Source: Tunicatimonas pelagia
GTDB lineage: Bacteria > Bacteroidota > Bacteroidia > Cytophagales > Cyclobacteriaceae
Direction of reading: 5' to 3'
Assembly: GCF_030506325.1 (NCBI RefSeq)
Contig: NZ_CP120683.1
Span: 3,733,001-3,797,000, forward strand
DNA length: 64,000 nucleotides
Shown here: positions 40,376 through 51,947 of the stretch, in pieces
Layout: every line of letters starts with the position of its first letter
Position numbering within the stretch: position 1 is the first letter of the stretch
Notes under the pieces: generated by a model
Database searches by the model: none
The model's input: the letters and a program-made list of their open reading frames with translations, nothing else
What the model was told of the DNA's origin: nothing
Position numbers and translations under genes: made by a program

Positions 40376-40954
40376 TATAAATGATAGTTGTAATGATATT
40401 GTATCTTAAAATTCCTCTCCCCAAATGAGTGAATCGGACTGCCGACGCAGTGAATTCCAGGATCTATTGCATGAGATACCGGAATTCGCAGAGCCTTATC
40501 CGGCAAGAGTATTTAGTTTTCGTCTTTGAGCTATTTGACCATTTCATGTAGTAGTTACTTTCTTGGTTCGGGTGGACTTATTATTCAATGACGACACGGT
40601 ATTTTTAGAAAAACCGGTGCGTCTGCTTGGAAATTCAGTGGGGTGTGCGCTGGATATGTGCGAGAAAGCTTTGAATTTCCTTGAATTTTTTGGCGGTAGC
40701 CGCGCTGTTCGTTTTTGTTTCAAGACGGGGTCTCCTAGACAAAAATGAACAAGCAAACATGCACACTTTTAGCATCATGAATCTTTCATGAAAAAGTCCT
40801 GATTAATCAAGTCTCTACATTGTTTGGTTTAGAAAGAATGTTTTACATCTGAAACCATTGTTCGCATCAATAATCATCAATTATACCTCACCCGCTACCC
40901 ATTTCATCGAAACCTTTTTATATTCGTCTCGTTGAACTTGAAAAATCAAACATT
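40376..40954. other. 579-base gap containing short G+C-rich blocks
   Basis: No supported gene. Two overlapping frames of 60-70 codons on opposite strands (40544-40756) lack any family features. Two G+C-rich dyads stand out from the AT-rich background: CTGCCGACGCAG at 40439-40450 and GGCGGTAGCCGCGC at 40692-40705. The second is almost identical, in inverse orientation, to a block at 51934-51947. Confidence 0.45.
40692..40705 (+). repeat. 14-base G+C-rich dyad block, copy 1
   Basis: GGCGGTAGCCGCGC lies in AT-rich flanks. Without it the flanks read GAATTTTTT then TGTTCGTTTTTG. The inverse of the block at 51934-51947 is GGCGGCAGCCGCGC (13 of 14 identical), and the identity runs on through CTGT for three further bases. 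The centre GCGG-TAG-CCGC is a dyad. Confidence 0.5.
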
Positions 40955-41152
40955 ATGGAAACACCTACGCCCACCACTCAGGATTTAGAAAAAGAAACGG
41001 TTCGCCGTGCGATCGCCGCTCTTGAAGCCCAATTGACCGGAGATATGTTTAAGGATATGGACATCCGCGACAAAATTCATAACCTGAAAATGAAGCTCAC
41101 CGGCACCAAGCCGATGGACTCGCAGATTGACTGCGTAGGCTGCGGAAGCTAA
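40955..41152 (+). CDS. Small Cys-tailed protein of unknown function
   Basis: A 65-residue soluble protein. A charged helix (LEKETVRRAIAALEAQL) is followed by DMFKDMDIRDKIHNLKMKL and a C-terminal tail with two cysteines (DCVGCGS). The helical part could dimerise, and the C-x-x-C tail could bind a metal or act as a redox pair. An intrinsic terminator follows 15 bases after the stop, so it is an independent short transcript. The start is supported by TATG spacing from the AT-rich promoter region and by the good codon use. No named family is recognised. Confidence 0.72.
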   Translation: METPTPTTQDLEKETVRRAIAALEAQLTGDMFKDMDIRDKIHNLKMKLTGTKPMDSQIDCVGCGS

Positions 41153-47533: not shown

Positions 47534-47609
47534 ATTACCGTACACTTTCTGTACTTGCTACCTTTGAGTGGACAGTAAGTTAAGCCTTATAATCCTTAAC
47601 TTAGCTAAC

Positions 47610-47897
47610 ATGAAACAAGAAAAAAGACACTTCGACCGAGCCTTCAAAGTGATGGCGGTTGAACTCTGCTTATTAGGAAAACCAACTAACCAGGTAGCAG
47701 AAGAATTAGACATCCGGGCCGATTTATTGAGCCGATGGAAGCGGGAATACAAACAGAAGAGAGAAGGGAGCTTCTCGGGGTATGGCAAGCCCTCTTTGAC
47801 CCCAGAACAGGCAGAGGTGGCTAAGTTGAAAAAGCAGTTACGAGAAGTAGAAATAGAACGTGACATCCTAAAAAAGGCGGCCGCCGTGGCACGGTAA
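47610..47897 (+). CDS. IS3-family transposase subunit A (OrfA)
   Basis: The DNA-binding subunit of an IS3-type transposase, about 95 residues from the ATG at 47610 (MKQEKRHFDRAFKVMAVELC). It has the helix-turn-helix (NQVAEELDIRADLLSRWKREY) and the leucine-zipper-like helix (LTPEQAEVAKLKKQLREVEIERDILKKA) that dimerises. A GTG upstream at 47568 would start inside the terminal repeat and is rejected. After ILKKA the frame runs into the first G+C-rich block and stops at AVAR. Without that block and the next, it would read AVSIFSKSDNRYSGS-stop, the usual OrfA ending. The tail is therefore altered. Confidence 0.85.
   Translation: MKQEKRHFDRAFKVMAVELCLLGKPTNQVAEELDIRADLLSRWKREYKQKREGSFSGYGKPSLTPEQAEVAKLKKQLREVEIERDILKKAAAVAR
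47880..47893 (+). repeat. G+C-rich micro-insertion 1 in the transposase
   Basis: GCCGCCGTGGCACG, 14 bases, placed between AAAAAGGCG and GTAAGCATC. It creates the perfect palindrome GGCGGCCGCC at its left border. Its sequence CCGTGGCACGG pairs with CCGCGCCACGG of block 2. Confidence 0.6.
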
Positions 47898-47916
47898 GCA
47901 TCTTTTCCAAGAGCGA

Positions 47917-47930
47917 CCGCGCCACGGAGG
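47917..47930 (+). repeat. G+C-rich micro-insertion 2 in the transposase
   Basis: CCGCGCCACGGAGG, 14 bases, between GAGCGA and CAACAG. Its inverse complement (CCTCCGTGGCGCGG) matches block 1 extended by one base on its right (CCGCCGTGGCACGG) at 12 of 14 positions. Confidence 0.6.
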
Positions 47931-47976
47931 CAACAGATATTCCGGTTCATAAAAGATCATCAAGGTATGTTTAGTG

Positions 47977-47990
47977 CGCCCGGCGCCCGG
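47977..47990 (+). repeat. G+C-rich micro-insertion 3 in the transposase
   Basis: CGCCCGGCGCCCGG, 14 bases, all G or C, between TTTAGTG and TTGCTAGG. It sits at the same point where about 55 codons of a typical OrfB are missing. Confidence 0.6.
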
Positions 47991-48050
47991 TTGCTAGGCT
48001 TATGAAGGCTGCTAATATCAGAAGTATCGTTCACAAGAGATTTAGATCGG

Positions 48051-48063
48051 TCCGCCGAAGCGG
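48051..48063 (+). repeat. G+C-rich micro-insertion 4 in the transposase
   Basis: TCCGCCGAAGCGG, 13 bases, containing the hairpin CCGC-CGAA-GCGG. The block is bordered by GGTC on both sides, so a 4-base duplication is possible. Confidence 0.55.
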
Positions 48064-48122
48064 TCAGAACTACCGATTCTAACCACAGTTATCCGGTAGC
48101 CAAGAACCTGCTAGACAGAAAT

Positions 48123-48137
48123 CGGCCGCCGACGCGG
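48123..48137 (+). repeat. G+C-rich micro-insertion 5 in the transposase
   Basis: CGGCCGCCGACGCGG, 15 bases, in frame, between AGAAAT and TTTAGC. It contains CCGC-CGAC-GCGG. The stretch GCCGACGCGG occurs inverted in block 8. Confidence 0.6.
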
Positions 48138-48254
48138 TTTAGCCCTGGCGATATAGCAAGGGCATGGGTGTCCGATCTGACGTACATCAAAACTACCCAG
48201 GGGTGGCTATATCTAACAATTATCGTGGATTTAGCCGACCGCAAGGTGATAGGC

Positions 48255-48268
48255 GGCCGCCGCGCGGA
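48255..48268 (+). repeat. G+C-rich micro-insertion 6 in the transposase
   Basis: GGCCGCCGCGCGGA, 14 bases, between GTGATAGGC and TGGTCG. It forms GGCGGCCGCC with its left border, the same palindrome as block 1, and contains CCGC-CGC-GCGG. Confidence 0.6.
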
Positions 48269-48446
48269 TGGTCGTTGAGTGAAACGATGAAAACGACTGA
48301 TACAGTGACCCCCGCCTGGAAAATGGCTGTAAAGAATAGACCGATCACGGCTGACCTGCTCTTCCATTCGGATCAGGGAGTACAATATGCCTGTCACGAG
48401 TTTAGAAATCTGCTTAAAACTCATCCCTTGGTTACACAAAGTATGA

Positions 48447-48461
48447 CGGGGCCGCCCGGCG
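48447..48461 (+). repeat. G+C-rich micro-insertion 7 in the transposase
   Basis: CGGGGCCGCCCGGCG, 15 bases, all G or C, in frame, inside the serine codon of the expected QSMSRKGN. It contains CCGCC-C-GGCGG when the next base is included. Confidence 0.6.
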
Positions 48462-48505
48462 GTCGGAAGGGCAACTGCTGGGACAACGCCGTAGCGGAAA
48501 GTTTC

Positions 48506-48519
48506 CGCGCCGCGTCGGC
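48506..48519 (+). repeat. G+C-rich micro-insertion 8 in the transposase
   Basis: CGCGCCGCGTCGGC, 14 bases, between GAAAGTTTC and TTCAAAACC, splitting the expected AESFFKTLK. The part CCGCGTCGGC is the inverse complement of part of block 5. Confidence 0.6.
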
Positions 48520-48738
48520 TTCAAAACCCTTAAAACTGAACTGATATACGTTGCTGAACCTACCAGTATAACGGAGACGAAAATTGGTGTGTTTGAATTT
48601 ATCGAGATTTGGTACAATCGGAAGCGGATGCACGCTTCGCTAGGGTACTTAACCCCGGTAGAATACGAAGCCAAACTCAATCAGAATCATTACCAGAACG
48701 CGGCTTAACTTTTTGTCCACTTTTCTATTGCAAGTTCA

Positions 48739-49049
48739 AAGTGTTTTGTTATCATACCTTTACGATAGATGCGTATCATTGCGATGTTGTTAGTTGGTGG
48801 TAAGAGACTTACTTATAACTAGCGGTACGCATCTTATCCTAATTCTTAGGAGAAAAGTTTAGATCACTTCATTTTGTAAAAAATTGGAGATGAACCAAGT
48901 AATAAGGAATAGGGGGGTAGTTTGCCCATAGCTCTATAAAGGCAGCCACCGCATATGCTGACCGACCAAGTTGCTATTTTTCAAACTAAATACTTGTATC
49001 ATGCTCGAAAGTAGCTTTATTACCGTATGAGTTTAGCTGTTTGTAACAT
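48739..49049. other. 311-base gap after the IS3 element
   Basis: No gene is supported. A 9-bp inverted repeat AGATGCGTA (48767-48775) / TACGCATCT (48826-48834) lies near the element. The rest is AT-rich and presumably includes the promoter of the RimK cassette starting at 49050. Confidence 0.45.
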
Positions 49050-51933: not shown

Positions 51934-51947
51934 GCGCGGCTGCCGCC
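51934..51947 (-). repeat. 14-base G+C-rich dyad block, copy 2
   Basis: GCGCGGCTGCCGCC on the plus strand; the inverse GGCGGCAGCCGCGC matches the block at 40692-40705 at 13 of 14 positions, with CTGT adjoining in both. It interrupts AT-rich text (TATTTTACA then TTTTTGTCG). The length equals that of the blocks inside the IS3 transposase. Confidence 0.5.

Follow-up and report, generated by a model that had tools for sequence, protein, structure and literature searches.

The window, by which we mean the whole stretch of 64,000 nucleotides that was analysed, covers positions 3733001-3797000 of contig 1 in a genome of 7.29 Mb that is 99.9% complete (G000). In the sample used for comparison each species is represented by one genome; G001-G003 belong to the same genus as G000, and the other G numbers stand for genomes related to it at the level of family, order or class. 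A copy of an IS3-type element lies on the forward strand, at approximately 47560..48740, and consists of orfA, the slip site A6G (47870-47876) and orfB, which runs to a TAA near 48708. The join of orfA and orfB at A6G and the domains HTH_Tnp_1, HTH_21 and rve place the host gene in the IS3 family, with most of the HTH_21 stretch missing from the window orfB. Its segments align piecewise with orfA and orfB of L007, another copy in G000, in whose two frames Pfam finds HTH_Tnp_1, HTH_21 and rve. When the window IS was aligned using MAFFT with four copies (L031 from G001, L029 and L030 from G040, and L007), the element proved to be broken up by inserts, with about 190 bases deleted as well. A search of the window with Rfam returned 0 families.

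The preliminary description had counted eight G+C-rich blocks between 47880 and 48519, and all eight were found, with a G+C content of 75-100%. Set against the four aligned copies, seven of them (1, 2 and 4-8) are clean insertions of 14-16 bases each, and at seven of the eight no target bases are lost. Block 1 (47881..47894, register ambiguous within 47878-47894) is a 14-base variant of the family we named F1 and reads CCGTGCCACGGCGG on the minus strand; the remaining blocks are given on the plus strand. Block 2, at 47917..47930, is an F1 sequence of 14 bases, CCGCGCCACGGAGG, at a site where L007 has a variant. Block 4 (48047..48062) is the 16-base sequence TCGGTCCGCCGAAGCG, of family F5, inserted directly 5' of GT, and block 5 (48123..48137) is the 15-base CGGCCGCCGACGCGG, which L031 carries identically at the same site. 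Block 6, GCGGCCGCCGCGCG, is a 14-base member of family F2 at 48253..48266; block 7, CGGGGCCGCCCGGCG, has 15 bases at 48447..48461, where L032/L020 of G001 show a different insert of 14 bases; and block 8, CCGCGCCGCGTCGG, is an F1 sequence of 14 bases at 48505..48518, identical in L032. In its catalytic region L031 has one more insert, of 14 bases, that is peculiar to it. Block 3, GCGCCCGGCGCCCGG (47976..47990), sits on the deletion, which relative to L031 removes about 65 orfB residues around the HTH_21 part, and is without a clean empty site; this deletion could be the product of recombination between two micro-elements.

Some details of the earlier account had to be corrected in the light of the alignment, which otherwise bears out its main point. 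The lengths first given were 14, 14, 14, 13, 15, 14, 15 and 14; block 4 has 16 bases instead of 13 and block 3 has 15 at the deletion, and the other figures stand. Removal of the blocks was said to restore one frame with every DDE-domain motif intact, and for the catalytic motifs this is so; however, the orfB of the window is not whole because block 3 sits on the deletion. The first 270 bases of orfA and the last 190 of orfB are free of blocks in the four-copy alignment, as described. Whether other copies lack the blocks, a question that had been raised, has a mixed answer: blocks 1, 4, 6, 7 and 8 lie opposite gaps in all four aligned copies and blocks 2 and 5 in three, the fourth being filled, and block 8 is filled in the further copy L032. 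Finally, the blocks had been described as not being copies of one sequence; they are copies of several families that recur elsewhere.

Family F1 was searched as CCGCGCCRCGKNGG allowing at most one mismatch, and gave 48, 23, 34 and 33 matches in G000-G003, where a control with the pattern reversed gave 11, 8, 7 and 3 (138 vs 29 over the four genomes of the genus). Some of the one-mismatch matches fall inside long ordinary ORFs and look like chance. Most of the other 55 genomes are near their controls, with an excess in G005 (40 vs 26), G010 (12 vs 4), G030 (13 vs 4) and G053 (162 vs 81), and no excess in the G+C-rich G048 (223 vs 228). Exact matches to F2, GCGGCNGCCGCGC, numbered 11, 2, 5 and 11 in G000-G003 (two of the 11 in G000 being one place read on both strands), a total of 29 vs 0 in the control; a further copy in the window, outside long ORFs, is GGCGGCAGCCGCGC on the minus strand at 51934..51947. 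Beyond the genus F2 is scattered and the control also finds matches, in G053 (8 vs 5) and in G048, where the count is not clearly above it (24 vs 16). F5, the 16-base family CGGTCCGCCGNNGCGG, is found in other genera too: exact copies number 1, 2, 1 and 2 in G000-G003, and 1 in G005, 5 in G010, 9 in G030, 9 in G031, 20 in G033, 1 in G046, 1 in G051 and 61 in G053, with control matches of 0 everywhere except 1 in G000 and 1 in G053. The 61 copies in G053, which belongs to another family of bacteria, were seen against that 1 control match, and their contexts were read at four loci. When 149 genomes were drawn from the class, F5 was matched 4 times, in 3 of them (1 in G000, 2 in G066 and 1 in G147), against 5 matches of the control, so that F5 is a feature of some genera and not of the class.

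Recurrence of this kind bears on the suspicion, listed in the preliminary description, that the blocks are an artefact of assembly or sequencing. Hairpins rich in G+C are difficult to sequence, which speaks for it. However, the same elements recur in independent, separately assembled genomes, G003 included, and blocks 5 and 8 are found identical at the same sites in G001; this contradicts the artefact, which we consider hardly credible.

To what extent the inserts are of a defined size could be read from an all-against-all gap comparison. It took in roughly 0.9 Mb from G000 and roughly 0.38 Mb from G003 together with pieces of G001 and G002, and gaps of at least 5 bases with clean flanks were collected (90 events, including double counts from both strands and from overlapping loci). 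Gap lengths peak at 14-15, with 21 events at 14, 20 of which have a G+C content of at least 70%, and 14 events at 15, of which 9 do; there were two at 16 and none at 17-22, and eight events of 12 bases are one site in overlapping loci. The dispersed repeat R1, which lies at 40605..40811 on the plus strand of the window and has copies in G001-G003, contains a 14-base insert of F2 type near 40693 and, downstream of it, an insert of GGGGTCTCC type recognised by eye. At the first R1 site, TTTTTG^GTTCG, 26 matches were read in G000-G003: 15 are empty, five carry 14 additional bases, one 15, one 24 and two 28, and the remaining two are one base shorter and, in an unrelated way, two bases longer. The families that occupy this site are unlike, being of F2 type in several copies and of F1 type in L253, and inserts of 28 and 30 bases are read as compound, one element being nested in another. 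Other R1 sites show, by eye, more hairpins of 14-15 bases. The hairpin motif at the core of R1, TTTTTGGTTCGTTTTTGTNTCAAGAC..., is widespread in Bacteroidota (loci L261-L380); among the matches listed, 120 loci provided 126 sites, of which 122 are empty, 3 have one extra base and one has a 15-base insert, the latter in the record of G003 itself. Elsewhere in the window, at about 40995-41010, the 15-base AACGGTTCGCCGTGC is present in G000 and missing from G003; it appears to lie in the reading frame of an ORF and may be able to fold into a hairpin.

Error-prone repair was another option put forward at the outset; each block would then be filler, a short piece of DNA taken over from another place as a break was repaired. 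The blocks are short, G+C-rich and varied, and one of them does sit on a deletion, all of which would suit such an origin. Repair filler would nevertheless leave unexplained the recurring families with fixed ends, in which identical 13-16-mers keep their ends from one unrelated site to the next, and it fits poorly with the preservation of target bases outside block 3 and with lengths limited to 14-16. We regard this explanation as improbable.

Many of the elements consist, by eye, of a hairpin of 11-12 bases followed by a tail of 3-4 bases. In a set of 33 inserts the mean longest stem was 3.94 as opposed to 3.36 after shuffling, and the summed stems were matched in none of 500 joint shuffles, a modest effect in a set that was compiled by hand from interrelated inserts with the register chosen by hand; no single insert reached p 0.05 in this test. 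A preference for the neighbouring base is apparent. All 20 exact F1 copies of G000 are followed by C, so that F1 adjoins a G on the other strand, and in 34 of 49 distinct contexts the GCGG of F5 is followed by T, F5 lying directly 5' of GT in two ABC-transporter ATPases and in several IS cases. Target-site repeats of up to 4 bases were seen by eye and are ambiguous.

The exact F1 copies of G000 lie for the most part outside long ORFs, 13 of the 20 having no overlying ORF of 100 aa. Four are in transposase genes (two in the window IS, one in L007 and one in L166, which has pieces of HTH_29 and DDE_3), and three are near the ends of ORFs: at codon 3 of 335 in L160, at codon 9 of 139 in L161, and in L174 at codon 1 of 204 and codon 94 of 102. 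Over 120,598 aligned coding columns of G000 and G003, the sole gap of 14-16 bases is one 15-mer with 60% G+C, and 9,241 aligned non-coding columns contain three G+C-rich, hairpin-like inserts of 14-15 bases, one of them in R1. The elements are rare inside ordinary genes. Islands of G+C in the non-coding DNA of three stretches of G000 numbered 28, 12 and 4 vs 13-18, 8-12 and 2-6 in simulated sequence; the whole window has 49, below the 60-78 of simulated sequence, and a plain island scan would miss the blocks.

The condition of the host gene could be taken to mean that it is still in use. Over the 318 codons between the blocks that were compared with L031 the sole stop is the natural terminator, and the dN/dS of orfA is 0.054, the synonymous sites of orfB being saturated. 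A working transposase would require that the blocks be removed as micro-introns or skipped by translational bypass, in the manner of the byp elements of mitochondria. However, the nonsense fraction is 0.0465, and up to about 63 neutral substitutions are compatible with zero stops at the 5% level, such that the host gene need only be recently dead; a recent arrival of the inserts accounts for the clean segments as well. Since aligned coding DNA is without such inserts, apart from the 15-mer mentioned above, and part of orfB is lost anyway, we discarded micro-introns and bypass as the main explanation, and the location of most exact F1 copies outside long ORFs adds to our view that they are very unlikely.

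Other transposase genes have collected similar inserts. L212 of G003, which represents another kind of IS3-type gene (HTH_Tnp_1, HTH_21 and rve_3), has five inserts of 15, 14, 14, 14 and 14 bases that are missing from its sister copy L402, also of G003 and 78.5% identical; they include F2, and one of the five, TCATTCCATGACGG, is only half G+C. L212 and L402 have an F5 in common. In G003 a Y1_Tnp gene is in two pieces with an F2 between them. In G033 three F5 are found at each of two places where the frames match rve_3 and, just under the cut-off, HTH_Tnp_1, and the frame at another F5 matches rve just under the cut-off. G040, a member of another family, has a 28-mer with 14 occurrences (loci L381-L394) vs 0 in the control; 13 of the 14 are directly 5' of the A6G slip site in IS3-type genes of several kinds, and in the frame of orfA the 28-mer includes a stop codon. 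In L034 and L035 of the same genome, orfB is uninterrupted over the aligned part.

This concentration invites the idea that the host silences transposases by aiming hairpin inserts at their genes. Most of the copies identified within genes are in transposases, eight of them in 1.19 kb of the window IS as against three in the aligned non-coding columns, a contrast to be used as a guide, as aligned spacer may be constrained, and the position of the G040 28-mer before the slip site points the same way. On the other hand, a bias towards transposases is expected from dispensability alone, R1 and DNA without long ORFs hold many copies, and two ABC-transporter ATPases of G033 carry an element each. 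There, in open frames of 308 and 313 aa (L395 1456-2382 and L407 1441-2382), 15 bases of F5 are read in frame as the five residues R-S-A-x-A, the two inserts differing in the NN loop (GG vs TT). Two other ATPase paralogues of G033 have the flanking codons adjacent, so that two of four are filled, and among 22 loci the position was readable in 12, with 2 filled and 10 without insert; alignments with PDB entries begin past the insert or place its residues loosely, and the question was settled by the paralogue comparison. Silencing is also at odds with the IS of G040 that carries the 28-mer: it made seven copies that do not differ over about 1,320 bases, the insert included, and a second insert of about 29 bases is seen by eye in the catalytic region. 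IS copies with inserts can therefore still multiply, probably with help in trans. As for the silencing option of the preliminary description, transposases are the main hosts seen within genes, but the elements are intergenic too, and we give it a small chance.

The elements occupy precise filled and empty sites, recur across contexts and species, nest in one another, keep to 14-16 bases and have a G as neighbour. The same short sequences stand at clean insertion sites in G000 and its relatives, and for this reason they look like very small mobile DNA, among the smallest known. Judging from these comparisons, we think it probable that the blocks are mobile elements of very small size, dispersed and falling into families of 14-16 bases, many with a hairpin and a tail, and that a dead IS3-type gene has collected eight of them. 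Of the options first listed, it is micro-transposition that agrees with identical 13-16-mers at precise filled and empty sites, in unrelated contexts and in separately assembled genomes. As sites common to related copies are partly inherited, the events are fewer than the copies. We would picture an enzyme acting in trans that makes new copies from a short hairpin, either by nicking and joining it or by copying it, with insertion next to a G; dispensable DNA would have received such copies again and again, and the host gene may already have been dispensable or dying when most of the inserts arrived. That a new mobilisation machinery, present in several genera of the order, copies hairpins of 14-16 bases beside G, often GT, is a proposal that we make tentatively and to which we give somewhat less than even chances.

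Certain known elements resemble those described here. The SDR of Nostoc punctiforme and its relatives, described by Elhai et al. in 2008, are said to be cyanobacterial and of 21-27 nt, and reportedly comprise hairpin families of unlike sequence that are found in repeats and minitransposons, are nested and were judged to be mobile. Like them, the present elements are very short and dispersed, fall into families of unlike sequence, lie inside other repeats, show filled and empty sites and have nested copies, and many of them can be read as hairpins; unlike the reported 21-27 nt, they have 14-16, and they are mostly G+C-rich, found in an order of Bacteroidota, beside G and in many cases in transposase genes. 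The cyanobacterial SDR thus appear to be the nearest known things, with the present elements shorter and in another phylum, and the earlier statement that no known class fits seems too strong, considering so close an analogue. In the parts of the sources available, the SDR of Nostoc punctiforme are cited or mentioned in passing (PMC3116915, PMC2884548), and among the papers listed in the literature search none was seen to name mobile hairpins of 14-16 bases in Bacteroidota.

Regarding palindromic repeats, we considered the REP elements, which are tied to Y1 RAYTs. Y1_Tnp (PF01797) had 0 matches in G000 and 5, 5 and 7 in G001-G003; a RAYT/Y1 transposase was accordingly rejected as the required mobiliser in G000, where PF01797 has no match. 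According to the portion available of one source, REP elements have 20-40 bp (PMC3733652). Our elements resemble REP and REPIN in being short palindromes, mostly outside genes, with a hairpin and flanking bases, and differ from them in their 14-16 bases and in the absence of a Y1_Tnp match from G000; the tags GTAG or CGTC of REP and REPIN are contained in some F1 copies and not in the F2 and F5 patterns. MITE have tens to hundreds of bp, a size below which inserts of 14-16 bases fall. The G+C clusters and byp elements of yeast mitochondria are also short G+C-rich hairpins within genes and spacers; they are, however, organellar and longer, and bypass is not favoured here. The palindromic elements of Rickettsia, of about 100-150 bp and tolerated in frame in proteins, recall the in-frame palindromic inserts of the G033 ATPases and are roughly tenfold longer.

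If these elements are mobile, hairpins of 14-16 bases would push down the size limit for mobile DNA, and the phenomenon would reach from cyanobacteria to Bacteroidota. Should the proposed shared machinery exist, no smaller mobile DNA would be known, and the elements would be a major cause of transposases being inactivated. The clean inserts in transposases, in R1 and in two ABC ATPases amount to many natural pairs of filled and empty sites, which open the choice of target, the control of length and the copying itself to direct study. For the bacteria that carry them, the elements would be a source of protein insertions of five residues and possibly a brake on insertion sequences.
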